Of a stretch of 64,000 nucleotides of DNA, positions 8,064-61,707 are shown piece after piece (position 1 is the first letter of the stretch; every line of letters starts with the position of its first letter). Source of the stretch: Gemmatimonas sp. (lineage in GTDB: Bacteria; Gemmatimonadota; Gemmatimonadetes; Gemmatimonadales; Gemmatimonadaceae); assembly GCA_011390885.1 (NCBI GenBank), contig JAABRO010000011.1, positions 186,001 through 250,000 of the forward strand. Reading direction: 5' to 3'. The position numbers and the translations under genes are program-made. A model generated the notes under the pieces. That model made no database searches. It saw only the letters and a list, made by a program, of their open reading frames with translations, and was not told the origin of the DNA.

Positions 8064-8159
8064 GGCGCAGCCGGTCGCGGCTGCACAGCGCCCCCGCAGC
8101 GACGCCATGATGGCCTGACGCAGGGCCGTATCGCACGGCTGCATCGCTCGGCCGAAGAC

Positions 8160-8200
8160 ACGAACGGGGCCGGTCGCACCATGCGACCGGCCCCGTTCGT
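8160..8200. terminator. bidirectional hairpin between S9 peptidase and susD
   Basis: Perfect 19-bp stem (8160-8178 with 8182-8200) and a 3-nt loop, between convergent stops at 8063 and 8220. Read on the minus strand, the stem is followed by TTCGTGTC-like sequence rather than a T-tract. A small hairpin (8067-8084) also follows the plus-strand stop. Confidence 0.8.
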
Positions 8201-18524: not shown

Positions 18525-18821
18525 CTACCGCTTCTCCACCGCGTCGCGCACGTCCAGCAGGATCTCGAAGTACAGCTGCTCGCGCCGGTAGGCGAAGTCG
18601 AGTGACGCCATCTGCGCCTCGTCGCCGACCTCCTTGGCACGGGCGAAGGCTTCGCTGTACATCTCTTCGAGGTTGGTCAGGATGCGATCACGGGAGCGGG
18701 ACATGCGCAGGGCCTCGAGGGCGGTGTGGGTGAGTCGGGGGGGCAGGTCGCCGGGCGCGGCGGTGGCGGCTTCGTCGGGATCGAGAAAGCGCGTCAGCCG
18801 CGTCATGAAGTGGCGGCGCAT
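18525..18821 (-). CDS. Conserved-looking small hypothetical protein
   Basis: A 98-residue acidic, mostly helical protein without signal peptide: LTRFLDPDEA at the N-terminus, then helices including SRDRILTNLEEMYSEAFARA and a Tyr/Phe/Glu-rich end. Start at 18821 or the in-frame ATG at 18806. Strand bias and frame use fit a real gene, and it sits between a convergent Uma2 gene and a divergent HNH gene starting 30 bp away. I do not recognise the family. Confidence 0.6.
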   Translation of the reverse strand: MRRHFMTRLTRFLDPDEAATAAPGDLPPRLTHTALEALRMSRSRDRILTNLEEMYSEAFARAKEVGDEAQMASLDFAYRREQLYFEILLDVRDAVEKR

Positions 18822-18851
18822 CGGATCGGGAATCTTCACGATGGCGTGCCG

Positions 18852-19238
18852 GTGAGTGACGAAGGGTTCGACGGGAGCGGTGCCGACTGGCCGCGTCACG
18901 CCAGCCTGACGCGCGAGCAGGTGTTCGCGCGGGACCACGACTGCTGCGTGTACTGCGGCGTCGAGGGCACCCCCGAAACGCTGAGCGTGGATCATGTGCA
19001 GCCCCGCGTGCGGGGCGGCGACCACTCGGCGGGGAACGTAGTGACGGCCTGTACCGCGTGCAACGCGCGCAAGGCGCACCGACGCCACGCGGAGTTCCTC
19101 GCCGACGAGCCCGAGGCCTGGCGGAACTTCCGCGCGCGGGCCCGGTACGTGTGGCCGCGTCACCTTGCGGCCGTGGAGGAGGAGCTCGCGCGCCGGTCCC
19201 GAACGAAGCGCGAAACCCGAGCGCCCGGGCGGGGTTAA
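18852..19238 (+). CDS. HNH endonuclease
   Basis: A 128-residue HNH nuclease. The core is CVYCG, then LSVDHVQPRVRGG (the catalytic DH and the first H of the motif), NVVTACTACNARK with the second zinc CxxC, then a C-terminal helix with FLADEPEAW and WPRHLA. This is the common HNH form with two structural CxxC knuckles. I chose the GTG at 18852, which leaves about 20 residues before the first Cys and clears the divergent gene; the frame is open further left but overlaps that gene. Such proteins are often orphan nucleases; no methylase or toxin partner is present. Confidence 0.85.
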   Translation: MSDEGFDGSGADWPRHASLTREQVFARDHDCCVYCGVEGTPETLSVDHVQPRVRGGDHSAGNVVTACTACNARKAHRRHAEFLADEPEAWRNFRARARYVWPRHLAAVEEELARRSRTKRETRAPGRG

Positions 19239-19280
19239 ATTGGGAGCAGGTTTGTCCCCTCAGCCAACGCAATCACGACC

Positions 19281-20123
19281 ATGAACAACGTGAAGGTTTT
19301 CGTCCTCATGGCCGGCATGACGGCGCTCGTCGTCGCCATCGGCCAGATGTTCGGCGGCTCCAACGGCGCGATCATCGCTTTCGGCATGGCCGCCGTCATG
19401 AACCTCGGCATGTTCTGGGGTTCCTCCAAGCTCGTGCTGCGCTCGTACGGTGCACGCGTCGTGAGCGAGGCGGAGGCTCCCGAGCTGTACCGCATGGTGG
19501 ACCAGCTCCGCCAGCGCGCCGGGCTCCCCATGCCCGTCGTGGCCATCGCCCCGCACCAGCAGCCCAACGCGTTCGCCACCGGCCGCAACCCGGAGAACTC
19601 CGTGGTGTGCGTCACCGAGGGGCTCATGCAGCTCATCAACCGGGAGGAGCTGGAGGGGGTGATCGCGCACGAACTGGCGCACATCAAGAACCGCGACATG
19701 CTCCTGCAGACGATCGCGGCCACGATGTCGGCCGCGATCAGCAACATCGCGCAGTTCGCCATGTTCTTCGGCGGCGGCCGCGACGAAGACAGCCCGAGCC
19801 CGGCTGCGGCGATCGCGCTGGCCATCGTGGCCCCCATCGCCGCCATGGTCATGCAGTTCGCGATCAGCCGGCAGCGCGAGTTCAAGGCCGACCAGGTGGG
19901 CGCCGAGATCTGCGGCCGACCGCTGGCGCTTGCCGGCGCGCTCCAGAAGCTCGAAATGAGCGCCCGTCGCATCCCGATGCAGGTCTCGCCGGCGGTCGCG
20001 CCGCTGGCCATCATCAACCCGCTGTCGGCACTCAAGAAGTTGGGCATTGGCAAGCTGTTCAGCACGCACCCGCCCACCGAGGAGCGCGTCGCGCGCCTGC
20101 AGGCGCTGGCCACCGCCGCGTAA
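19281..20123 (+). CDS. htpX: HtpX-like membrane zinc protease (M48)
   Basis: A 280-residue M48 membrane metalloprotease. Two N-terminal membrane segments (about residues 5-20 and 28-47) precede the active site HELAH (His130, His134) with the third ligand Glu200 in REFKAD, and two further hydrophobic stretches near 148-190. The C-terminal STHPPTEERVARLQAL block is typical of HtpX. It degrades misfolded membrane proteins under stress. It lies 42 bp after the HNH gene and ends at a hairpin shared with the convergent ferredoxin gene. No strong Shine-Dalgarno. Confidence 0.93.
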   Translation: MNNVKVFVLMAGMTALVVAIGQMFGGSNGAIIAFGMAAVMNLGMFWGSSKLVLRSYGARVVSEAEAPELYRMVDQLRQRAGLPMPVVAIAPHQQPNAFATGRNPENSVVCVTEGLMQLINREELEGVIAHELAHIKNRDMLLQTIAATMSAAISNIAQFAMFFGGGRDEDSPSPAAAIALAIVAPIAAMVMQFAISRQREFKADQVGAEICGRPLALAGALQKLEMSARRIPMQVSPAVAPLAIINPLSALKKLGIGKLFSTHPPTEERVARLQALATAA

Positions 20124-32664: not shown

Positions 32665-32697
32665 AGGGCCCGGGTGCGGATCTCGCACCCGGGCCCT
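32665..32697. terminator. bidirectional hairpin after pdxH
   Basis: Perfect 14-bp stem (32665-32678 with 32684-32697) and a 5-nt loop between convergent stops at 32638 and 32719. Read on the minus strand it is followed by TTCGTGTG, as at 8160 and 59127. Confidence 0.8.
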
Positions 32698-58562: not shown

Positions 58563-58599
58563 CACGAGCGCCCCGCCGGTGGCCGGCGGGGCGCTCGTG
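58563..58599. terminator. bidirectional hairpin between glpD and greA
   Basis: Perfect 17-bp stem (58563-58579 with 58583-58599) and a TGG loop between convergent stops at 58553 and 58619. No T-tract. Confidence 0.8.
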
Positions 58600-58618: not shown

Positions 58619-59101
58619 TCACTCGTCGCCGAGCGCGTCCTCGTGGATGGTCACGAGTTCCACGACCTTGAGGCGACGCGTGGTGGCGGGCAGCCGCAGG
58701 ATGGCCGTCTCCCCGACGGCCTTGCCGGCGAGCGCGCGACCGATCGCCGAGCCCATGGTCACATGGCCCTCCTCGAAGTCGGCGGAGTCGCCGAACACGA
58801 GGTGGTACGTCTCGCGCCCGCCCATGCCCTCGTCCTCGACGACGACCTTGGAGCCGAGGCCGACGCGGTCGGTCGGAATCTGGTCCATGTCGATCTGGCC
58901 GAGCTTGCTGAGCCGCATGTTCAGTTGCCCGAGCCGCGCCTGCACGAACTGCTGGCGTTCGAGCGCGGCCTTGTACTCCGAGTTCTCCTTCAAGTCGCCC
59001 ATCTCCACCGCGCGGCGGATCTCCGCGGGCAGGACGATGGTGAGTTCGTGCGTGAGTCGTTCGACTTCGCCGCGAAGCCTGGCCTTGAGTTCCTCGAGCA
59101 T
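58619..59101 (-). CDS. greA: Transcription elongation factor GreA
   Basis: A 160-residue GreA that stimulates RNA cleavage in backtracked polymerase. The N-terminal coiled coil starts MLEELKARLRGEVERL and has the tip acidic pair in GDLKENSEY; the C-terminal domain has GSKVVVEDE, YHLVFGDSAD and the GSAIGRALAGKAVGE block. I chose the ATG at 59101 over 59140 because it gives the normal family start and length. A strong promoter lies 120 bp upstream and two hairpins fill the leader. Confidence 0.95.
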   Translation of the reverse strand: MLEELKARLRGEVERLTHELTIVLPAEIRRAVEMGDLKENSEYKAALERQQFVQARLGQLNMRLSKLGQIDMDQIPTDRVGLGSKVVVEDEGMGGRETYHLVFGDSADFEEGHVTMGSAIGRALAGKAVGETAILRLPATTRRLKVVELVTIHEDALGDE

Positions 59102-59126
59102 GGTGGGCACCGGTAAGTGACACGAA

Positions 59127-59158
59127 GCCCCGTGGCACACCGTGGGTGTGCCCGGGGC
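59127..59158 (-). promoter_or_regulatory. greA leader hairpin 2, terminator-like
   Basis: 14 pairs with one bulged base and a GTG loop (59127-59158), 26 bases before the greA ATG. On the minus strand it is followed by TTCGTGTCAC, the same tail as the convergent terminators at 8160 and 32665. It could attenuate greA. Confidence 0.6.
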
Positions 59159-59179
59159 GTGGGGCAGATAAGCAAAGGA

Positions 59180-59207
59180 GCGCCCGGCCTGCGGTCAGGC
59201 CGGGCGC
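59180..59207 (-). promoter_or_regulatory. greA leader hairpin 1
   Basis: Perfect 12-bp stem (59180-59191 with 59196-59207) and 4-nt loop, followed on the minus strand by TCCTTTGCTT. It begins about seven bases after the predicted greA start point and 65 bases after the metalloprotease stop, so it may be that gene's terminator, a greA leader element, or both. Confidence 0.6.
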
Positions 59208-59220
59208 ACCTTCATTAGGT

Positions 59221-59249
59221 ATTGTACCCCTGCGAGCCGGTGCCCTCAA
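59221..59249 (-). promoter_or_regulatory. greA promoter
   Basis: TTGAGG (59249-59244), 17-bp spacer, TACAAT (59226-59221) on the minus strand: 4/6 and 5/6 consensus, the best sigma-70 site I see in the window. Predicted start near 59214, giving a leader of about 113 nt. Confidence 0.7.
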
Positions 59250-59271: not shown

Positions 59272-61707
59272 TCAGGGCCAGGGGAGCGGAATCACCGGGA
59301 AGCGCGTGCGCGACGCGGGCACGTCTTCCCCGTCGAGGAAGCGTTCGATGTCGACACGCGCCGCCAGCCGGTGCGCATGGACAGCGTCACGCCGGCTCGT
59401 CGCGTTGTCGAGCGCATCCTCGAGCTCCGCGTCGAGCTGCTGCAGGTGCATGGCCGCGATCGCGCGCACCTCGGGCATGGCGCGCGCATCGCCGGCGAGG
59501 TCGAGCAGGGCATCGAGCGCGGCGCGCTGCACGGCGCGCTGGATGGCCGGATGCTGCGTGCTCGTCGAAGCGCGCCACGTACGCGCCATGAGCGTGTCGA
59601 GCACGTCGTCGAAGCCGAGCGCACGCGGGTCCTGCGCCTTGAAGATCACGAGGCGCGCGGCACGCTCACGGTCGAGCAGGTAGCCGATCACCTCGGTGGC
59701 GAGCCCGCCGGCGAGCGTAATGGGGTCGAACGCCGTGCCGGCGTTGCCCTCGATCCACGTCAGCTCGCCGCCCATGCCCGGAGGCGGCGGCGGGATCATT
59801 GCAGAGATCCGGGCCGGCACCGCGAGTTCGGCCGGCATGATCGCGTCGAGCGCGAGCGAGAGTGCGCGGCGCTGCTGCTCGGCCGGGATCACGGTGGTGG
59901 GCACCTGCCCATCGCCGCGCATCGCGAAGCGGAAGTCCATGCCGCCCACGTACTTCACCAGCCCCTCGAGCGAGTAGCGGTGATGCAGGTACACGTGCGC
60001 GAAGCGCATGTTGAGCAGGTGCATCGGCTCGCCGGGCTGGATCGCGCGCTCGTCGAAGTTGTCCATGAGCACGCGGCGCACGCGCGCCGTGCGCTCCACG
60101 GCGTCGAACATCGTCGCGCCTTCCACCCAGCGCGTGACCTCGGGAATGGAGCCGTTCGGGCCGGCGTACGTGTCGTTGATGAAGCGCACGTTGCGATCGA
60201 TCATCTCCTTGATCACGGCCGCGTTGCCGGCCCGCTCAGCGGCGGCATCCGGATACCAGCGATAGCCGAAGCGGATCGCCAGCGAGTCCCACGCACCGGG
60301 GCCTGTGCGGTAGGCGTCACGCAGGTCGGGACGACCGTCGGCACCGACGGTGATGAGCGGCACCGGGTAGTCCATCACCGAGGAGCGGCCCTGCGAGGCG
60401 GCGATGTAGTTGTGCGACAGGCCGAGCGTGTGCCCGATCTCGTGCGCCGTGTGCTGCCGGCGCCGCGCCATGGTGAACGCCTCGGCGCTCACGTTCGGGC
60501 CGGTGGGGCCCGACGCGGGCACGGTGCCGGCCCAGATGTTGTAGTCCACGAGCGAGCGCCACGCATCCATGCGCACCACGGCGCGCACGATCTCGCCCGT
60601 GCGCGGATCGCTGTAGCTCGGCCCCACCGACGGGCCGGGCCCCGTGCGGTGCACCCACATGAGCATGTTGTAGCGCGCGTCCATGGGGTCGGCGCCGGCG
60701 GGCAGGTCGCGCACCTCGAAGGCGTTCTTGAAGCCGGCCGCCTCGAACACCTTCGCCCACCAGTTGCCGCCCTCGCGGAACGCCTCGCGATACGGTGCGG
60801 GGATGCCGGGATCGAGGTAGTAGATGATCGGCGTGGCCGGCTCCACGAGCTCGCCGCGCGCGTAGGCCGCGGGATCCTTCGGCACCAGGCGCCAGCGGTT
60901 GATGAAGCCGGCGCGATACTGCTGGTCGAAGCCCTGCGACAGGTCGGCGAACTGCGTGCCCCCGTAGCCGGACCGCCCATCGTAGGCACGCGGCGTGAAG
61001 CCCGCCGTGTCCGGCAGCACGACAAGCGAGTGGTGCTGCTCGAAGGTCATCGCGCCGGCGTCGGGCGCGACGCGACGCGCGGTCGCGGCCGGTGCGTCGG
61101 AGGTGAAGGTGAGCACGGCGTGCACTTCCACGTTGCGCGGGAAGGACTTGGTGCGGTCCGTGTCGAACCAGCTGCGGGCCGCGTCCACGCGGTACGAGCC
61201 GCCACCCTGCCCTCCGCGCAGGCCGCCGGCCACGCCGTACACGTCGCTCAGGAAGAAGCTCGTCGCGTCCACCGTGATCACGCCGTTGGTCTCGCCGTCG
61301 ATCGTGAACGAGGCCGACACGGACCGCGGGAAGGCGTCGCGTGCCGCCTGCTGGTTGGCTGCGTCACCGCTGAGCGCGCGCGGGTACAGGTTGTCGCGCA
61401 CCATGAGGATGCGGTTGCCGCGCCGCTCGAGCTTGACGATGAAGTTCGCACCCGTCTGGCCGCGGTCGAGCGAGCCGGTGCCGAGGCCGGTGGCCAGCGT
61501 GTTCTGGTAGAGGAAGTCGCGGCCGAGCTGCGCGGCCGGAATCTCGAGCATGAGCCGGTTGCGCGCCTCGTCCACGCGCACGCGCAGGAACTCCGACGCC
61601 TGCGCCGCACTTGGTGAGGGGAATGCGAGCAGCGCGACGGCGACCACTCCGGTGTACACTGCGGACAGCAGGCGGCGCAGCGGGCCGCGCACACGATCAG
61701 GCGACAT
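59272..61707 (-). CDS. Secreted zinc metalloprotease (DUF5117/DUF4953 type)
   Basis: An 811-residue exported metalloprotease. The start at 61707 has GAGG six bases upstream and begins a signal peptide ending near SAAQAS; an upstream ATG at 61794 would add 29 residues. N-terminal beta region DUF5117-like (FLRVRVDEARNRLMLEIP, DFLYQNTLATGLG), a putative propeptide-like section, then the zinc motif HEIGHTLGLSHN with SSVMDYP as the Met-turn, as in metzincins. The C-terminal 250 residues are helical. Adjacent genes: greA downstream and a LOG-family gene 49 bp upstream on the same strand. Confidence 0.9.
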   Translation of the reverse strand: MSPDRVRGPLRRLLSAVYTGVVAVALLAFPSPSAAQASEFLRVRVDEARNRLMLEIPAAQLGRDFLYQNTLATGLGTGSLDRGQTGANFIVKLERRGNRILMVRDNLYPRALSGDAANQQAARDAFPRSVSASFTIDGETNGVITVDATSFFLSDVYGVAGGLRGGQGGGSYRVDAARSWFDTDRTKSFPRNVEVHAVLTFTSDAPAATARRVAPDAGAMTFEQHHSLVVLPDTAGFTPRAYDGRSGYGGTQFADLSQGFDQQYRAGFINRWRLVPKDPAAYARGELVEPATPIIYYLDPGIPAPYREAFREGGNWWAKVFEAAGFKNAFEVRDLPAGADPMDARYNMLMWVHRTGPGPSVGPSYSDPRTGEIVRAVVRMDAWRSLVDYNIWAGTVPASGPTGPNVSAEAFTMARRRQHTAHEIGHTLGLSHNYIAASQGRSSVMDYPVPLITVGADGRPDLRDAYRTGPGAWDSLAIRFGYRWYPDAAAERAGNAAVIKEMIDRNVRFINDTYAGPNGSIPEVTRWVEGATMFDAVERTARVRRVLMDNFDERAIQPGEPMHLLNMRFAHVYLHHRYSLEGLVKYVGGMDFRFAMRGDGQVPTTVIPAEQQRRALSLALDAIMPAELAVPARISAMIPPPPPGMGGELTWIEGNAGTAFDPITLAGGLATEVIGYLLDRERAARLVIFKAQDPRALGFDDVLDTLMARTWRASTSTQHPAIQRAVQRAALDALLDLAGDARAMPEVRAIAAMHLQQLDAELEDALDNATSRRDAVHAHRLAARVDIERFLDGEDVPASRTRFPVIPLPWP

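Follow-up and report, generated by a model that had tools for sequence, protein, structure and literature searches.

A conserved hairpin and U-run form a putative attenuator in the greA leader of Gemmatimonadaceae

The DNA analysed here is a 64-kb stretch (the window) of a metagenome-assembled genome (MAG) of the Gemmatimonadaceae, and the features described all lie on its minus strand. The greA coding sequence (58619–59101; 160 aa), for the factor that rescues RNA polymerase, contains the Pfam domains GreA_GreB_N and GreA_GreB, and its ATG start at 59101 is conserved in relatives. GreA identities to the nearest of these, two of them MAGs named Gemmatimonas, were 83–89%. The protein retains the acidic motif GDLKEN, which we take to be the counterpart of the catalytic tip of the Escherichia coli protein. 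Although both domains are present, the NCBIfam GreA score was 105 bits against a cut-off of 139 bits, and automatic annotation of this protein may therefore be imprecise. No Shine-Dalgarno-like motif was found ahead of the start codon of the window greA. The gene upstream is metalloprotease-like, runs in the same direction and ends at 59272, 65 nt before the first of two hairpins (H1 and H2) in the greA leader.

The original prediction had singled out TTGAGG-17-TACAAT (59249–59221, minus strand) as the best promoter of the window, and a scan at a criterion of 9/12 matches returned it as the only sigma-70-like site in all 64 kb. From its −10 element, transcription is predicted to start at about 59214, giving a short unpaired 5′ segment (59214–59208). 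H1 follows directly (59207–59180), with a perfect 12-bp stem and a 4-nt loop, and the fold lengthens it by GAAGG:CCUUU to 59213–59174. Behind it lies a U-rich tail, UCCUUUGCUUAUCUG (59179–59165), matched by T-runs in relatives; a short leader RNA is predicted to end near 59172. The run consists of just UUU-G-CUU in the window's species; three relatives in the genus retain UUUUC (TTTTC in the DNA), and by this comparison the U-run has decayed to UUUGCUU in the former. H2 (59158–59127) pairs 14 bp around a 3-nt loop and is followed by the tail TTCGTGTC (59126–59119). The two stems thus agree with those expected beforehand, save that the second carries one bulged A. The folding energy of the 116-nt leader was −70.8 kcal/mol, compared with −45.2 ± 3.2 kcal/mol for shuffled sequences (z = −8.1), and both hairpins occur together in the minimum-energy fold.

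The tail of H2 had been likened to those of terminator hairpins elsewhere in the window. The window alone gives one further case: there are five copies of TTCGTGTC against 1.97 expected, of which one other follows a gene-end hairpin (8157–8200, where TTCGT lies within the stem) and the remaining three do not. The likeness does hold across 464 kb of the same genome, where TTCGT marks 21% of gene-end hairpins and 1% of control stretches, and TCGT was found in 44% of gene-end hairpin tails versus 6%. Because gene-end hairpins of this genome carry TCGT or TTCGT tails, H2 resembles the terminators that close genes here. Very long G+C-rich hairpins (14–20 bp) that lack a U-run are found at gene ends at 1993–2036, 8160–8200, 32665–32697 and 58563–58599 of the window, most of these ends being convergent. 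H2 was present in all four members of the genus that have greA, weaker in one of them (L003), and is absent elsewhere in the family, where the leader has a single hairpin. Judged by this distribution, H2 is a genus-level addition and H1 the conserved element under long-term selection. The prediction had placed the emphasis on H2 as the terminator-like hairpin; the comparison moves the weight to H1.

Conservation was assessed in 92 distinct greA leaders of the Gemmatimonadaceae, using a hairpin and T-run score that is blind to sequence. H1 with its U-run passed in 86 of the 92, giving a layout of the kind known from the E. coli leader GraL, in which a terminator-like hairpin and U-run separate greA from its promoter. 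The hairpin lies 19–50 nt before the greA start in most leaders, and a T-run of three or more is found in nearly all. Among the six leaders that failed, two were just below the threshold and four were clear negatives (L006, L025, L026 and L120), in which greA sits close behind an apparent same-strand gene. L025 and L026, which belong to one genus, have an A/T-rich palindrome of GTGATTA repeats before greA that folds into a long imperfect hairpin. The score was passed by 9 of 18 greA leaders in the sister family and by 4 of 20 elsewhere in the class, two of these four following an apparent tRNA gene. In another family of the class, greA lies close behind an apparent tRNA 3′ end (L275, L277 and L279); L275 and L277 have a hairpin with a long T-run between the tRNA-like 3′ end and greA, perhaps the terminator of the tRNA. 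The promoter recurs along with H1: TTGnnn-16/17-TAnnnT was found ahead of the hairpin in 61 of 85 family leaders, against 0.74 expected from mononucleotide shuffles, and the gap from the −10 element to H1 is 4–29 nt in relatives.

In the window, a terminator-like hairpin so soon after the end of a co-directional gene could simply belong to that gene. Across the family, however, 52 of the 86 leaders with H1 have a divergent gene upstream, so the hairpin is not the terminator of a neighbour in those leaders. Upstream genes change from one relative to the next while H1 remains with greA, and even where the neighbour is co-directional, as here, the promoter intervenes between that gene and the hairpin. 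Termination of the upstream gene is refuted for the family by these neighbours, and we regard it as a very improbable account of H1.

The conserved letters of H1 are paired, whereas loops and flanks vary in length and sequence, the loop ranging from 3 to 11 nt. Seven pairs are altered on both sides, and the covariation score exceeded all 500 shuffles in a test that takes no account of relatedness; the alignment omits the most diverged stems (e.g., L012, L014 and L018), which also pair. Covariation of the stems in relatives, proposed with the original prediction as a check, is thus found for H1, and in H2 too the letters have changed and mostly remain paired. Within the inner stem of H1, G-U cells outnumber A-C cells by 44 to 8. 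This bias, together with the variable loop, indicates from the alignment that selection acts on the greA-sense RNA rather than on a DNA palindrome or an antisense RNA. The conserved dyad, GCGCCCGGCC...GGCCGGGCGC, adjoins the promoter and could in principle serve as the operator of a dimeric repressor, but the spacing of its half-sites varies from 3 to 11 nt, and the stem accepts G-U pairs, which would disrupt a dyad in DNA, but not A-C pairs. An operator would also leave the one-sided T-run unexplained. Given the changing length of the loop and the excess of G-U pairs, we reject this reading and assign it next to no likelihood.

The same features bear on whether the element is mainly a gene for a trans-acting small RNA, with greA reached by read-through. 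Small RNA genes likewise consist of a promoter, hairpin and U-run, and E. coli GraL acts both in cis and in trans (PMC6829880). However, loops and flanks, where seed sites would be expected, are the variable parts of the element while its conserved letters are paired, and it stays with greA. A predominantly trans-acting role accordingly seems highly unlikely.

The arrangement is rare at other genes. Background samples of 464, 400 and 392 kb were taken from three family genomes with a home-made gene caller, and 1/125, 3/117 and 0/83 divergent-type leaders of other genes passed the hairpin and T-run score (4/325 in total). Among these four are two leaders of hisG that encode a His-rich peptide (MQRTTAHHHAHHGHG and MPCCRPTHHHTHHGHG), showing that the score recovers classical attenuators. 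In both L292 (G000:C33; hisG at 18619–19497, minus strand) and L316 (G051:C1; hisG at 261431–262309, minus strand), a peptide of the HHHAHHGHG or THHHTHHGHG type is followed by a hairpin and T-run. By their sequence layout, they are classical histidine attenuators in Gemmatimonadaceae.

A covariance model (R1) built from H1 was searched against the window's own genome and 18 relatives; in the former and in 17 of the latter, the greA leader was the best match. Secondary matches are mostly ordinary terminators, the majority lying 18–38 nt past a stop codon and often where two genes converge. One H1-like hairpin, with a poor U-run, lies 84 nt before an O-acetylhomoserine sulfhydrylase-like gene (L188; G000:C2:50355–50402, minus strand) and is possibly another leader element. 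The secondary matches first suggested that H1 is the terminator hairpin in general use in the family. This was rejected on comparison with 30 gene-end terminators picked without regard to sequence: the core GCGCCCG/CGCCCGG occurs in 72 of 85 greA leaders and in 2 of the 30, a contrast that is not phylogenetically independent because the leaders were drawn from many genomes but the gene-end terminators from two or three. The same caveat applies to spacing, in that the T-run of greA leaders typically starts 5 nt past the stem (the commonest value, 29/85), while at gene ends it mostly abuts the stem. The near-fixed stem letters and the offset U-run suggest something beyond a generic stop.

Both the offset and the position of H1 at or beside the predicted 5′ end would also suit a different role, in which the hairpin stabilises the mRNA by blocking 5′-end-dependent decay and the U-rich stretch replaces the Shine-Dalgarno sequence as a ribosome landing site. 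The U-run ends near the start codon, and a Shine-Dalgarno-like motif was found in just 4 of 87 greA leaders. Yet such a U-run is no general pre-start feature of these genomes, TTTT preceding the start in 73 of 87 greA leaders but in only 2–12% of other genes, and a hairpin is found there in about 1% of the other genes. In the window's genus, moreover, the U-run lies ~70 nt from the start, too distant for landing, and is nevertheless retained. We consider this role unlikely, if less so than the other alternatives. The reading that we prefer, with fairly good confidence, is that H1 and its U-run act as an attenuator at the very start of the greA leader.

In the proposed attenuation, transcription from the conserved promoter would begin a few nucleotides ahead of H1, so that the hairpin would form almost at once and RNA polymerase would pause in the U-run. 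Some complexes would then release a short RNA of about 40–50 nt, and others would read through into greA; early termination at this point is what we infer from the arrangement of hairpin and run. In the window's genus, H2 may supply a second stop. The RNA ahead of H1 measures a few to about 20 nt, which leaves no space for an antiterminator, aptamer or leader peptide. An antiterminator-type arrangement was not seen in the minimum-energy fold, where the two hairpins coexist, and at most about 20 nt of RNA precede H1. Nor was a conserved leader peptide found ahead of H1, where, unlike at hisG, there is too little RNA; ATGAAGGTGCGCCCGGCCTGA, which lies close to the predicted start in the window, is not kept in relatives. 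With so little RNA before the hairpin, read-through would be set by the hairpin and U-run together with polymerase factors such as GreA, NusA and NusG.

GreA itself would be the likeliest regulator, since it acts on backtracked complexes and cleavage-active GreA enhances the GraL terminator of E. coli, and its action would give negative feedback. Such feedback of GreA on its own leader termination is plausible, although we advance it tentatively. With its offset T-run, H1 might terminate weakly or serve as a pause site, and a stop that is not open to regulation might merely lower greA expression. More speculatively, and to our minds somewhat doubtfully, H1 may be a sequence-specific RNA element read by polymerase and GreA, providing a backtracking-dependent stop through which GreA titrates its own gene without a sensor domain. 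If that were true, this reading of H1 would be a second, independent invention of autoregulation of the GreA/GraL type.

The closest known system is that of E. coli, where the GraL terminator stops about two thirds of greA transcripts and loss of GreA lowers GraL about 4-fold (PMC6829880). Repression there requires cleavage-active GreA and the hairpin's own letters; how GreA represses itself through GraL is unsolved, the authors finding classification hard and suspecting a missing factor (PMC6829880). Both leaders place a hairpin and U-run shortly past a promoter of their own, both lack a leader peptide, and the short RNA predicted for Gemmatimonadaceae is about the same size as GraL (37–59 nt). 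They differ in that E. coli has two promoters, a U-run 1–2 nt past the stem, and about 100 nt and a Shine-Dalgarno sequence before the start, whereas the Gemmatimonadaceae have one promoter, an offset U-run and a start codon usually 20–45 nt after the stem.

Nor are the two related in sequence. The Rfam model of the enterobacterial greA leader (RF01769), which scored 127.5 bits on E. coli as a positive control, had no match in the window even at an E-value of 10 and none at gathering score in ten relatives; conversely, a model built from Gemmatimonadaceae leaders did not match the E. coli greA leader. Rfam scans of the window and relatives gave nothing credible. The element is, on present sequence comparisons, analogous rather than homologous to GraL and probably evolved independently. 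Of the independent GraL equivalent in the original prediction, the attenuator-type leader is strongly supported across the family (by position, promoter, covariation, strand test and divergent neighbours), and its independence of GraL holds in sequence.

Premature terminators ahead of greA/rnk have also been predicted in bacilli, Clostridia and Proteobacteria (Naville & Gautheret, 2010; PMC2965389), and Gemmatimonadota are not among the groups named there. Those leaders share with ours a premature terminator before a greA-family gene, but were reported with a clear antiterminator structure, for which the RNA before H1 is too short. The hisG attenuator of the same family likewise has a hairpin and U-run, about 65–70 nt before the start codon in a divergent-type leader, but there a His-rich leader peptide is the classical ribosome sensor and the U-run abuts the stem; the greA leader lacks a peptide and its run is offset. 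A literature search for greA with Gemmatimonadota, covering titles and the beginnings of abstracts, returned no paper evidently on greA regulation. Attenuators in greA leaders are known from other phyla, the present element matches neither those predicted before greA/rnk nor RF01769 by model, and within the limits of that search none has been described from Gemmatimonadota. The same layout with a different sequence, conserved throughout a family in a distant phylum, offers natural variation in which the important features can be located by comparing stem letters, spacer, U-run and distance to the promoter, and it suggests that a stop to greA transcription directly at the promoter arose more than once.
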